Source of the DNA: Runella sp. CRIBMP
GTDB lineage: Bacteria; Bacteroidota; Bacteroidia; Cytophagales; Spirosomataceae
Direction of reading: 5' to 3'
Assembly (NCBI RefSeq): GCF_009905605.1
Contig: NZ_JAAAKZ010000002.1
Location: forward strand, 868,001-932,000
Length of the DNA: 64,000 nt
Positions 12,723 to 17,377 of the stretch are shown here, one piece after another. The translations under genes were made by a program, and so were the position numbers. Under the pieces are notes generated by a model. It was not told where the DNA came from and did not search any database. It saw nothing but the letters and a program-made list of their open reading frames with translations. The first letter of the stretch is position 1; each line of letters begins with the position of its first letter.

Positions 12723-12768
12723 AAAAAGGTCAGAAAGGCGTTCTTACGACAAATTTTCTGACCTTTTT
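12723..12768. terminator. Bidirectional terminator touching the lyase stop codon
   Basis: A perfect 14-bp stem (AAAAAGGTCAGAAA at 12723-12736 with its complement at 12755-12768) has an 18-base loop and T runs in both directions. Its right arm ends on the stop codon of the minus-strand HMG-CoA lyase gene. Confidence 0.85.
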
Positions 12769-13613
12769 TATCCAAAAACATACTGAGAGGCCAACATCGC
12801 CTGCGCCAGTTGTTGCTCGTCGATGGTCAGTTTTGCTTCTAACTGATTCAACTCGCTCACAACCAATTCCGTAGCCAAATTTCCTACCAGTTTATCTTCG
12901 GCCAGTGGGCAACCTCCAAAACCCCGAACCGCACAATCAATGCGCCTGACGCCCGTTTTGTAGGCGGCTCTTACTTTCTTGGCCACGTGGCTCGATTTAG
13001 CATGAAGATGCGCTCCAAATTCAACATTTGGGAATTTTTTGAGCAAATGTCCGTACAACGTTTTAATGTCATCGGTAGTACTCGTTCCGATGGTGTCTGA
13101 AGGGGCGATGATGTTGATGCCCATTCCCACCAAACGCTCCGAAAATTGCTCCACCAGCTCGGGGCTGTACGGGTCGCCATAATGATTCCCAAAACCCATC
13201 GAAAGATACACGACCAATTGTTTGTTGGCGTTCAAACACAGGTTTTGAATTTCGCTCACTTCCTCAAACGCTTGCGCAATGGTCTTATTTGTGTTTTTGT
13301 GTTGAAATGTTTCGGAGATGGATAATGGAAAACCTAAATACGTAATCTGCTCAAATATAGCCGCATCCTGCGCCCCCCTTAGATTGGCGACGATGGCGAG
13401 CAACTTGGTTTTTGTAGCAGACATATCCAATTTTTCGACCACCTCCGCCGTATCGCGCATCTGCGGAATGGCTTTGGGCGAAACAAAACTGCCAAAGTCA
13501 AGCGTGTCGAAACCTACCTGCAACAGACGATTTAAGTAATTTATTTTTGTTTCCGTGGGAACAAAATCGGTCAGCCCCTGCATGGCATCCCGTGGACATT
13601 CAATGAGTTTCAC
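12768..13613 (-). CDS. Hydroxymethylglutaryl-CoA lyase
   Basis: A 281-residue HMGL-like TIM-barrel enzyme. It has the catalytic Arg in ECPRDAMQG, the metal-binding HxH in FGAHLHAKSSH and the C-terminal loop with catalytic Cys in GFGGCPLAEDKLVGNLATE. It cleaves HMG-CoA to acetyl-CoA and acetoacetate in leucine breakdown. The frame is open to a TTG at 13643; I place the start at the GTG at 13613 because the protein then begins KLIECPRD as the family does. It is the last gene of a minus-strand run, 48 bases after the MoaD-like gene. No other leucine-degradation gene is present in the window. Confidence 0.9.
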   Translation of the reverse strand: MKLIECPRDAMQGLTDFVPTETKINYLNRLLQVGFDTLDFGSFVSPKAIPQMRDTAEVVEKLDMSATKTKLLAIVANLRGAQDAAIFEQITYLGFPLSISETFQHKNTNKTIAQAFEEVSEIQNLCLNANKQLVVYLSMGFGNHYGDPYSPELVEQFSERLVGMGINIIAPSDTIGTSTTDDIKTLYGHLLKKFPNVEFGAHLHAKSSHVAKKVRAAYKTGVRRIDCAVRGFGGCPLAEDKLVGNLATELVVSELNQLEAKLTIDEQQLAQAMLASQYVFG

Positions 13614-13661
13614 AGTGTATTGGTAAATAATGAAAAAATTCAATCAAGGTGTAAAAACAAT

Positions 13662-13904
13662 TTAGCCTCCGCTGACGGGCGGAATGAGCACGATTTCGTC
13701 GTTGGAATGCAACAGGGTCGAATCGTCGGCGTATTCGGTATTGACGGCTACCCGTAGCGAAGTTAACTTCTGAAAATCAGGAAATTGAGCAATCAAAAAC
13801 TGCTTCAAATCGGCTACGGTTGCTGAGTCAGACAACTGTACGGGCAATTCGAGCTGACCGATTATTTCTTTGGCAATCCCGAAGGATAGTATTTTAAGGT
13901 TCAT
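13662..13904 (-). CDS. moaD: MoaD/ThiS family sulfur-carrier protein
   Basis: An 80-residue beta-grasp protein ending in the diagnostic Gly-Gly (IVLIPPVSGG). It starts MNLKILSFGIAKEIIG, and the overall length and pattern fit MoaD, the small subunit of molybdopterin synthase, which carries a thiocarboxylate on its last glycine. No moaE, moeB or other cofactor gene is adjacent, so ThiS-like or other sulfur-carrier roles stay possible. It lies 53 bases after the VWA gene and 48 bases before the HMG-CoA lyase gene on the same strand. A sulfite-oxidase-like molybdoenzyme is encoded 40 kb away. Confidence 0.85.
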   Translation of the reverse strand: MNLKILSFGIAKEIIGQLELPVQLSDSATVADLKQFLIAQFPDFQKLTSLRVAVNTEYADDSTLLHSNDEIVLIPPVSGG

Positions 13905-13957
13905 TTGTACTAACTAAAATTTGTATAGTTTCTCAACATTTATCCTTTTAAAAACAT

Positions 13958-15109
13958 TCATCGCAACTGCTCCACCACCCGTTTGAGGCTCTCCAAATTG
14001 TGGGCGGGCGCGTGCAAATCCAAGTGCGGCAACACCGCTTTAAGCGCCTTCACTTCGGGGCGATAATCAGGCGAACCCGCCAGCGGATTTAGCCAAATAA
14101 CCCGGCGGGCTTTCCGACGAATGCGCTCCATATTCAGCGCCAAATCGTCGCCTTCACCCGTATCCATGCCATCGCTGATGATGAGCACAATGGTGCGAGA
14201 ATTGAGCTTACGCATGGCGTATTCTTGTACAAACTCACGCAAAACGGCTCCAATATCAGTCCCCCCCGACCAATGTGGCACACGTTCGGTAAGATTTTCG
14301 AGGGCCTTGGTGTACTCCATTTCTTTTAAATCTTCGGTAATACGGCACAGGTGCGTGCTAAACACGAAGGTTTCGATGGATTGGTACAAATTCTGAAACG
14401 CAAACATAAACTGCACCCAAAAACGGCTGTAAAGCTCCATGGATTTGCTCACGTCGCAGAGGAGCACCAACCGAATTTTATTGCGGGCGGGACGGCGGTA
14501 AAATAAATCAATGATTTCATCACCTTTCCGAAAGTTGTTGCGCAGTACGCGCCGCAAATCCAACTGACCACCGCTACGAGCCGCTTCGTAGCGGCGGCTC
14601 ATGGTTTTGGCCATTCGCTGCACCAAAGTCCGGATGATTTTCCGCGCTTCGTACAAATCTTCGTCGGTATACGAACCAAAATCTTTTTGTGAAAGCGGCT
14701 CGCCCAAACTATACGAGGCAAGTTCCTCCTGCTCGGGTTGACGGTTACCACTGAGCCAGTTTTTCAGGGCTTCAAACGACGCTTCACCGTTTTGGTTATT
14801 TTTCTTTTTTTTCGATTTGCTCTCTTCGGCGTCTTCTTTTATTTTGGAATCATCGGCTTTGGCAAGTTCTTTCCAATACTTTACATACAGCTCGTCAAAC
14901 TCCCGAAGTTGTTTGCGGTTTTGGGGATAAATACTGCGCAATGCCAGATAAAACTGTACTTCGTCGCCCACGTTGATTTCGGCCAGTGCTTTGAGCGCAT
15001 CTGCCTCACGGTCTGGCCCAACGGGCATACCACTCGCCCGCAAAAAACGGCTAAAGGCCACTATGTGCCCAGAGAGAGAAGTTTGTCGGGCGATGAGGTT
15101 ATTTCTCAT
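13958..15109 (-). CDS. VWA domain-containing CoxE-like protein
   Basis: A 383-residue protein with an N-terminal helical region ([25 protein letters not shown]), a lysine-rich low-complexity linker ([20 protein letters not shown]) and a C-terminal von Willebrand A domain. The MIDAS metal site is intact: DVSKS in [11 protein letters not shown], Thr in [11 protein letters not shown] and Asp in IISDGMDTG. The architecture matches CoxE-like proteins, which work with AAA+ partners in enzyme maturation. The ATG at 15109 overlaps the end of the AAA+ gene by 11 bases, a sign of translational coupling. The ATG at 15145 is possible but would lengthen the overlap. Client unknown. Confidence 0.88.
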
Positions 15110-16685
15110 AAATCCACTTGAAAATGTCCTTAGGCAAGTCTTCAAAACGGCCTTCTGCTAAGGCAGGATTCGGTTCATAAGTTATTACATTTTCGGCGTT
15201 TTCGAGGTCTTCGCCAAAAAGTTCCCGTTCAAGAGATGACGTGTATTGTTTTTTCACCTGAATTAGCTTACAATCAGTGGGTTTACCCCAACGGTCATTG
15301 TCGGCCAATACCAGCTGAATCTTACGCCAATCATCATAAAAATACTCCTGCAACAACGGAATAATCTGGTCTCGCATGGCCTTGCAAAGTTGCTCAAATG
15401 TATCAATGTTCATCAAATACGCGTGCCCTATAACGTGGTCACGGTCGTGCAAAAATTCGATGCGTTCGTTGAGCGTGCGCAACAGTCGCCCTAAATCAGT
15501 AGTTTCAATAACCCTGCCTTCGAGCAGCGTTTCGTTGGGTTGACGCTCGGCAAAATGAAACCGTCGGCGCAGGGCCGTATCCAACAGGGCGATGGAACGG
15601 TCGGCAGAGTTCATTGTACCTAGAATGTACAAATTGGGCGGCACTCCAAAACGCTCCTGCGAATACGGCAACGTAACCCACAGCTCATTTTCAGCCCCCA
15701 ACCGCTTAGACGGTTCAATGAGCGTGATGAGCTCGCCCAGCACCTTGGAGATATTGGCACGGTTGATTTCGTCAATAACCATAAAAACGGGCTCTGAGCG
15801 GTCAAATCTTGCTTTTCGGGTTTCGGCTGCATCCGTGATGCAACCTTCAAAACTTTGGTAATCTGCTTTCCGAAGCGCCTCCAAACAGGCCTCATAAAAA
15901 ACCCCTTTCCTTACCCGATAGCTAATTTTATCACCGATGGTTTCGGGGCGGATTCCTTCCACAAACTCCTCATAACTAAAGGATTGATGGAAAGTGATAA
16001 ATTTGTGTGAATACACTCGACAAAGCTGCTGAACTTCGTAGGTTTTGCCCGTTCCTGGCGGGCCATACAAAACGTAATTAAGAGGAATTAGAGGTTTTTC
16101 AACGGGTACTTTATACACTTCTTCCGAGTCTTTAAGCGTCGTTTTTCCACTCGTTATCTCATATCTTTTTTCTGCTAATCCCAACACTTCTGCGTTAAAG
16201 GCATCGTCTTCGGCAGCATGATAAACCGCATTATTGTGTAACTCGCGGTGGTTGGTCGAGGTGGCAATTTGTTTTAAATCCTGCAACGAATCAATCCAAT
16301 GCTGCACAATACTTTCGTTTTGCCACAAATGCTTATCGGCGTATTTAATCCAACCCAGTGTATAATCAGATGTACTTTTATCCTCAAAAACGATCTTACT
16401 ATTCTTCAACGGGGCTTTGTTCAAAAGCTCTTTTTTAAATAATAACCCAACTCCTACATTTTCCTTTTTTCCTGAAATCTGCAAGCAGGTGTGGTTATTT
16501 AGATTTGCCGTAATTCGGGGGTGCTTTTCACTGACGGTAAACGCAATTTGAGACGAGTTGGGAGGCAGGTCTAAGCTGTCAATCATCTCCTTCAACAACT
16601 TAAAAAAGCGCCGAACTGCGTCGTATTGGTTTATACGACGAATCTGCTTGATCAAAATATCACGCTCGGTGACTGTACTTTTCAT
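15099..16685 (-). CDS. McrB-like AAA+ ATPase
   Basis: A 528-residue protein with an uncharacterised N-terminal region of about 200 residues and a C-terminal McrB-type AAA+ domain. Walker A is GPPGTGKT at residues 208-215. Walker B is [19 protein letters not shown], a signature of McrB ATPases. Sensor and arginine-finger segments are [25 protein letters not shown]. McrB normally teams with the nuclease McrC, but no mcrC is present. Instead a CoxE-like VWA gene overlaps by 11 bases. The N-terminal region contains an [16 protein letters not shown] stretch that may form a beta-rich binding domain. I start at the ATG at 16685 (MKSTVTERD) rather than at 16769. Probably the motor partner of the VWA protein. 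Confidence 0.85.
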
Positions 16686-16921: not shown

Positions 16922-17377
16922 ATGCCTATTCGATTGCTGTTCTTTTGTCTTTTTCCACTCGTTTCCTACGCCCAAACTTTTTCGTATGGCCGATTTGTTG
17001 CCCGAAATCACGCCGTTGTATGGACCGAGAAATTTGAAATTAAAGACATGGATGAGCCTATCATCGTTGATGCCGTCAAAGAGCAATTGAGAGGCAAAGA
17101 ATACGTTCGTTTTGACACCCTTCAACAACACGAAATTGTGAGCGGATGGCTCATCAATCCTCACGCTTCGTCCATTGTCAAAGCCCGATTTAGAGTTGAT
17201 ATTTTGTACGAAGGATACGTAGTGGCCGTCAGTGAAATCATTGAATCAGCCCTAAATAAAGAAGCACCCCTCGAAAACTGTCTGTTAAAAAGCGACGGAA
17301 GGTTTATTGAAAATCCCCCCAAACGAGCTGAAACGTTAGACAGTTTTTTGATAAAGCTGTTTGAAATAAAGCAGTAG
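16922..17377 (+). CDS. Secreted hypothetical protein
   Basis: A 151-residue protein with a clear signal peptide (MPIRLLFFCLFPLVSYAQ). The mature part alternates short strands and a helix: VVWTEKFEIKDMDEPIIVDAVKEQL and VDILYEGYVVAVSEIIE. The pattern is loosely like DUF4468-type periplasmic domains of Bacteroidota, which I cannot confirm. It begins 237 bases from the start of the divergent AAA+ gene. No function is proposed. Confidence 0.75.
   Translation: MPIRLLFFCLFPLVSYAQTFSYGRFVARNHAVVWTEKFEIKDMDEPIIVDAVKEQLRGKEYVRFDTLQQHEIVSGWLINPHASSIVKARFRVDILYEGYVVAVSEIIESALNKEAPLENCLLKSDGRFIENPPKRAETLDSFLIKLFEIKQ

Follow-up and report, generated by a model that had tools for sequence, protein, structure and literature searches.

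The McrB-type ATPase gene beside coxE in Runella is co-inherited with a distant mcrC

Which system does an McrB-type ATPase serve when its gene lies beside coxE instead of mcrC? The question is raised by a 64,000-nt stretch of DNA from Runella sp. CRIBMP (assembly GCF_009905605.1, contig NZ_JAAAKZ010000002.1, positions 868,001 to 932,000; hereafter the window), whose source genome comprises 7.13 Mb in 55 contigs. Here, mcrB is followed on one strand by genes for a CoxE-like VWA protein, a MoaD-like protein, and a protein resembling 3-hydroxy-3-methylglutaryl coenzyme A (HMG-CoA) lyase (Table 1). The initial annotation had read this run correctly, including the 11-base overlap of mcrB with coxE and the intact metal ion-dependent adhesion site (MIDAS) of the VWA protein, and it had suggested that the McrB-type motor, together with CoxE and MoaD, matures a molybdoenzyme. 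Our analysis favors a different answer, to which we assign a probability of roughly 0.85: two unrelated systems meet at this locus, namely the motor of an McrBC system with a distant McrC and the CoxE of a distant molybdenum enzyme. The locus would thus be a syntenic mosaic of the genus Runella, in which genes of separate systems share one strand.

The ATPase is predicted to be an McrB-type AAA+ protein, i.e. a GTPase-type motor subunit. It contains Walker A and Walker B (DEINRA-type) motifs, the McrB signature [22 protein letters not shown], and the sequence MNSADRS of the NxxD type, and it is organized into an N-terminal module (residues ~1-170), a linker (~171-195), and an AAA+ domain starting at ~196. 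Thermococcus McrB is its top PDB match both by sequence (E = 1.3e-63) and by fold (E = 5.3e-22), with the MoxR proteins NorQ and CbbQ following at 2e-7 or weaker. Given this ranking and a separate CoxD in the genome, the ATPase is not of the MoxR/CoxD type. Nor does it belong to the coiled-coil nuclease tandem (CoCoNuT) McrBC systems, for which the motif NxD has been described, NxxD being the signature of classical McrB (PMC11090510). The NCBIfam model for McrB (PRK11331) matched with E = 1.6e-33, but the score was 116 bits, the equivalog cut-off being 637. A search of the source genome with McrB as query returned a single match. PADLOC labels of the REase_II type were dropped, as the matches were weak and partial. 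Compared with the NxxD branch of McrBC (Escherichia coli, Thermococcus gammatolerans), the Runella system is alike in the AAA+ GTPase-type domain with Walker A/B and NxxD, in the presence of an N-terminal module, in the EVE domain of some relatives, and in an McrC with PF10117 and the motif PD...DxK. It differs in that mcrB and mcrC form no operon, that the pair looks vertically inherited, and that its N-terminal module has no Pfam family.

The description of the run as lacking McrC held for the locus and failed for the genome. No McrC was present in the fetched surroundings of McrB at any of 12 Runella loci, and the McrC profile likewise detected none at eight Runella loci. In the source genome, however, McrC is encoded on a different contig from mcrB (C53:17390-18658; PF10117 E = 2.3e-77; motif PD...DMKWK). 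The PF10117 profile detected at least one McrC in each of the 13 Runella genomes, where the mcrC locus invariably adjoins rimP and nusA homologues. Of 22 aligned McrC proteins, 21 retain the nuclease motif PD...DxKWK; the sole one without it (L067) stems from a more distant McrBC of the adjacent type. Across 150 genomes of the family (Spirosomataceae), orthologues of both proteins occurred together in 68, McrB alone in none, McrC alone in two, and neither in 80. For these counts, an McrB orthologue required a near full-length match (two pieces were accepted in G067 and for long EVE-type forms) and an McrC orthologue at least 216 bits to the Runella McrC query; co-occurrence and distance lists were compiled by hand from the search results. 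The co-inherited partner of McrB is therefore McrC. McrC identity also tracked the identity of the McrB AAA part in 17 genomes (r = 0.95), a correlation to which shared species history contributes and which was not used as proof. McrB might instead be an orphan that acts without McrC, e.g. as a regulator or in another defence system. Such a role would be compatible with the CoxE and MoaD assignments and would fit the lack of McrC around McrB in the 12 fetched Runella loci, but we regard it as unlikely, as McrC with its catalytic motif is present elsewhere in 13/13 Runella genomes and in 68/68 family genomes with McrB.

How far apart the two genes lie varies widely within the family. Both were located on one contig in 39 of the 68 genomes, with starts that are adjacent in a single genome (G006), about 5-6 kb apart in nine, 14-189 kb apart in sixteen, and 0.76-4 Mb apart in thirteen (e.g. 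1.9-2.5 Mb in G063, G050, and G095). These distances refer to match starts along the contig, and a circular chromosome could make the true distance shorter. For the remaining 29 genomes, McrB and McrC were on different contigs or fragmented, and hence yielded no distance. Outside the family, a scan of named genomes placed McrC within about 0.8 kb of McrB in 63 of 66 loci, two of the three misses (L186 and L220) being cut by contig ends. The same scan covered 13 loci inside the family, where four of the Runella loci extend only 1-2 kb on one side, and found an adjoining McrC only in that of G006 (L153). The McrC and MoaD profiles used for locus scans were built from sequences of this study and may miss remote members. 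Because of the difference between 63/66 and 1/13 loci, we regard the separation as peculiar to this lineage, in which both halves continued to be inherited. McrBC is apparently dispersed and vertically inherited here; the missing adjacency weakens the notion of a typical operon, not the assignment of the ATPase to McrB. Intervening genes between mcrB and mcrC have occasionally been noted (PMC11090510). In the open-library literature, we found no report of a separation on the scale of a chromosome and none on McrBC of Spirosoma or Spirosomaceae; for McrBC and Runella, the one match was a metagenome paper on carboxypeptidases. Cluster c14, which represents a conserved neighbour of McrB in other genera, was considered as a candidate for McrC and rejected, since Pfam identified it as a zinc alcohol dehydrogenase.

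Additional evidence came from the N-terminal module of McrB. As the initial annotation had noted, this domain is unassigned: the N-terminal region of the window protein gave no Pfam match at E ≤ 0.01. Between McrB of R. defluvii (G103) and R. limosa (G086), the N-terminal modules are only 33.3% identical, but the AAA and C-terminal parts are 95.2% identical. McrB of G111 combines an N-terminal module of the G103 type (66.9% identity) with a different AAA background (76.6%) and contains an EVE domain according to Pfam. The G103 protein is longer than that of G086, and its extra segment may likewise be EVE, judged by similarity only. EVE domains have been linked to the binding of modified bases (PMC7641849). 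We also noted long McrB forms of 663-690 aa (L052:15879-17870, L051:1166-3202, L068, and L069), whose extra residues lie between the N-terminal module and AAA+; among these, a Pfam match to EVE was confirmed in L052 only. The isolated module of the window McrB was predicted by AlphaFold with a confident fold (predicted local distance difference test, pLDDT, of 92). Foldseek returned no match to it at E ≤ 0.001, and a second fold search indicated a middling resemblance (Z up to 7.4) to YjbR/DUF1801-like proteins and the DNA-binding domain of T4 MotA. We treat this likeness as a lead only and claim no fold family. The module is probably a specificity domain that can be exchanged between species, and its swapping is easier to reconcile with a module for DNA specificity than with a conserved maturation chaperone.

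The VWA protein encoded next to McrB is predicted to be CoxE, based on its match to PF05762 and the MIDAS pattern DVSKS...T...D (motifs DVSKS, GGTD, and SDG). Assignment to the MadC family (NF047783) was discarded, because the match was partial and reached 78.8 bits against a cut-off of 600; no open-library paper combined at least three of MadC, MadB, VWA, and mycofactocin. That such a protein is linked to molybdoenzyme maturation, as initially proposed, agrees with its co-inheritance with a CO-dehydrogenase-like Mo-hydroxylase. CoxE, CoxL, and CoxD occur as a set in 11 Runella genomes, whereas the remaining two of the 13, G095 and G124, have none of them. The Runella CoxL proteins are 76-79% identical to the CoxL query, and the CoxD proteins 70-71% identical to operon-borne CoxD. 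Within the 150 family genomes, 36 contain CoxE or CoxL and 32 of these contain both; CoxE alone and CoxL alone were found in two genomes each, and 114 genomes have neither. CoxE was counted here at 40% identity or more (including the frame-broken copy in G078) and CoxL at 75% or more (including a fragment in G133); a distant CoxE set of 35% identity and below, G029 included, was left out.

The three genes are scattered in Runella. On contig C12 of the source genome, CoxE is located near 882 kb, CoxL near 684 kb, and CoxD near 243 kb; in the ten other Runella genomes with these genes, CoxL and CoxD are on different contigs from CoxE or at least about 0.2 Mb away. Thus, the Runella proteins resemble the CoxD-CoxE (MoxR-VWA) pair of the molybdenum CO dehydrogenase in PF05762, MIDAS, and co-inheritance with CoxL and CoxD, but differ from it in that coxE is detached from both coxD and coxL. 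Of 13 fetched CoxE loci of the family outside Runella, 11 have CoxD close by (from an overlap with CoxE to a distance of 1.4 kb) and CoxL within 1.5-4 kb; at the other two (L077 and L080), neither was in reach. Of the 21 non-Runella genomes with both CoxE and CoxL, many of which are drafts, 12 have the two at a distance of 3-11 kb and nine have them on different contigs. Detachment of CoxE from CoxL is therefore not special to Runella. A wider sample of 395 Bacteroidota genomes yielded CoxE matches in 13 genomes at 19 places. After removal of two Runella places, 17 loci remained, including two from the family member G008, and 16 of these have CoxD no more than 1.5 kb from CoxE.

The presumed client of the Runella CoxE is of form II. 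The CoxL loop reads AYRGAGR in 11/11 Runella genomes, and the ten fetched coxL regions share the gene order coxG-S-L-M, the order S-L-M being that of the form II type. In Oligotropha, CoxD and CoxE have been reported to take part in the sulfuration of the CO dehydrogenase active site and in the insertion of copper there (PMC4240915). By family, CoxE of Runella would be a maturation factor of this form II CO-dehydrogenase-like Mo-hydroxylase encoded elsewhere. Its exact task may differ from that in Oligotropha, because the form II loop, unlike AYXCSFR of form I, has no cysteine; what form II enzymes do has itself been described as unclear (PMC13203968). We found no literature on a Runella carbon monoxide dehydrogenase in the open library. 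Two further loci were observed in this context: (i) G111 also holds a complete form I CO dehydrogenase operon (L109, C84) with the loop AYRCSFR and the order M-S-L-G-D-E; and (ii) the source genome encodes another MoxR-type ATPase and, next to it, a VWA protein with a partial PF05762 match (L112:7361-9509, at 567 kb of C12).

The junction of mcrB and coxE is conserved in order and variable in detail. The order McrB-VWA-MoaD is kept in all 11 Runella genomes with the VWA protein. Seven of them display the 11-base overlap; in two, about 50 bases separate the genes, and in another two a pair of open reading frames (ORFs) is inserted, i.e. a toxin-antitoxin-like pair DUF433/DUF5615 in G050 (L046:9549-10159) and a ParE-like ORF with a weakly matched antitoxin in G111 (L052:15401-15848). 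G095 retains McrB and MoaD without CoxE; between them lies a degraded remnant, three pieces of which can be aligned to the insert of G050 at 73-81% identity. The conserved order and the frequent overlap would be expected if the McrB-type motor had been recruited as a maturation ATPase acting with CoxE, and possibly with MoaD, to replace or supplement CoxD. The status of CoxE as a molybdoenzyme factor, by family and co-inheritance, would also agree with this, and PDB entries on NorQ-NorD VWA complexes indicate by their titles that AAA+ and VWA proteins can cooperate. We nevertheless judge such a partnership of McrB and CoxE very unlikely: the fold is that of McrB and not of MoxR, CoxD is present in these genomes at the high identity to operon-borne CoxD given above, McrB occurs without CoxE in 42 of 68 McrB genomes (G095 included), McrB was found beside CoxE at none of the 13 fetched non-Runella CoxE loci, ORFs interrupt the junction in G050 and G111, and McrC accompanies McrB in 68/68 genomes. 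Replacement of CoxD by McrB was rejected in view of the CoxD encoded elsewhere in the genome. In the open library, McrB, VWA, and CoxE came together in one paper, on a radiation response of Deinococcus.

Several observations weigh against our view of two separate systems. First, the persistence of the overlap in 7/11 Runella genomes means that co-transcription may be selected. Second, McrB and CoxE are associated across the 150 genomes (26 with both, 42 with McrB only, 8 with CoxE only; odds ratio 5.7, p = 6e-5), and the association persists outside Runella (odds ratio 3.3, p = 0.01). We attribute this co-occurrence to shared ancestry, and co-expression may in addition bring a benefit. Third, McrC was found without a recognised McrB orthologue in G013 (82% complete) and G124 (97% complete, 570 contigs), and McrC may have a further McrB-like partner that escaped detection. 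McrB could even be a shared motor that drives the distant McrC and also acts through the coupled CoxE on the form II molybdoenzyme. Restriction would then be linked to molybdoenzyme maturation, a scenario that we consider highly improbable. The alternatives discussed here overlap, and their probabilities need not add to one with that of the two-system reading. A novel restriction motor that builds molybdenum enzymes is unlikely, and an attractive conclusion drawn from gene order is removed as probably wrong.

For MoaD, the proposed tie to the cofactor maturation pair also proved weak. In every one of the 13 Runella genomes, no ThiS-family match other than the MoaD-like protein was obtained, and the protein persists in G095 and G124, which have neither CoxE, CoxL, nor CoxD. 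It matches PF02597 with E = 3e-14, and its C-terminal GG is conserved in all 12 aligned sequences (11 from Runella and one from G045). With its ThiS-family membership, C-terminal GG, single copy, and a MoaE in the genome, it resembles MoaD of the molybdopterin synthase; it differs in that moaD is detached from moaE, which is located beside fdhD on another contig of the source genome, and in that NCBIfam TIGR01682 scored 63.1 bits against a cut-off of 66.15. MoaD most likely serves molybdopterin synthesis in general, since it is kept in the two genomes without CoxE. The same-strand arrangement, short gaps, and conserved order in Runella might instead reflect one functional metallocofactor operon in which MoaD gives sulfur to the CoxE client, a notion that overlaps with the recruitment of McrB. 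G045 offers a precedent, as its form II cox operon coxL-coxM-coxD-coxE is directly followed by moaD-moaE (L081, C1:2624664-2630673). Outside Runella, however, moaD adjoins CoxE in only 1 of 23 CoxE genomes, among the matches listed with coordinates, and at 1 of 13 fetched loci by profile, G045 in the latter case; CoxD-CoxE pairs are routinely found without moaD, with none within 1.5 kb of CoxE at the 17 phylum-sample loci. Routine occurrence of the pair without moaD is what the initial annotation had named as grounds for dropping the cofactor-maturation idea. Together with the retention of MoaD after loss of CoxE, form II CoxL, and CoxD, this makes a single operon quite unlikely. The adjacency of coxE and moaD in Runella may be a remnant of a cluster like that of G045.

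Under the two-system reading, and by analogy to known McrBC, the N-terminal module of McrB would recognise modified or foreign DNA, and McrB would form GTP-driven hexamers. McrC, whose PD...DxK motif is intact, would join these hexamers in trans, stimulate hydrolysis, and cut. CoxE and CoxD, the MoxR AAA+ protein encoded elsewhere, would mature the form II CO-dehydrogenase-like molybdoenzyme, and MoaD would supply general molybdopterin synthesis. What we retain as unexpected is that McrBC of this family is dispersed and that its N-terminal modules are exchangeable. For an McrB that seems to be an orphan, a co-inherited McrC can be located megabases away. Such split systems could escape surveys in which McrBC is validated by gene neighbours, so that a lone McrB or McrC should be checked genome-wide. 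With motor and nuclease at separate loci, the N-terminal module can also be swapped while the nuclease stays as it is.

Table 1. Features at the mcrB-coxE locus (positions within the window).
Feature	Position	Strand	Basis
mcrB	15099-16685	-	528 aa AAA+ ORF; Pfam/NCBIfam, PDB sequence and fold matches, motifs read
McrB N-terminal module (residues 1-172)	16170-16685	-	Module swaps; AlphaFold pLDDT 92
mcrB/coxE reading-frame overlap, 11 bases	15099-15109	-	Read from ORFs
coxE (VWA)	13958-15109	-	383 aa; PF05762 E 1.9e-59; MIDAS intact
moaD-like	13662-13904	-	ThiS family, C-terminus PPVSGG
HMG-CoA-lyase-like gene	12768-13613	-	Family match
Divergent ORF upstream of mcrB	16922-17377	+	151 aa

Two flanking genes complete the locus. 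The HMG-CoA-lyase-like gene is the downstream neighbour in all 12 Runella loci examined, which gave no sign of its membership in the McrBC or Cox system. The divergent ORF upstream of mcrB, with neither a Pfam nor an NCBIfam match, is present in 11 of the 12 loci.

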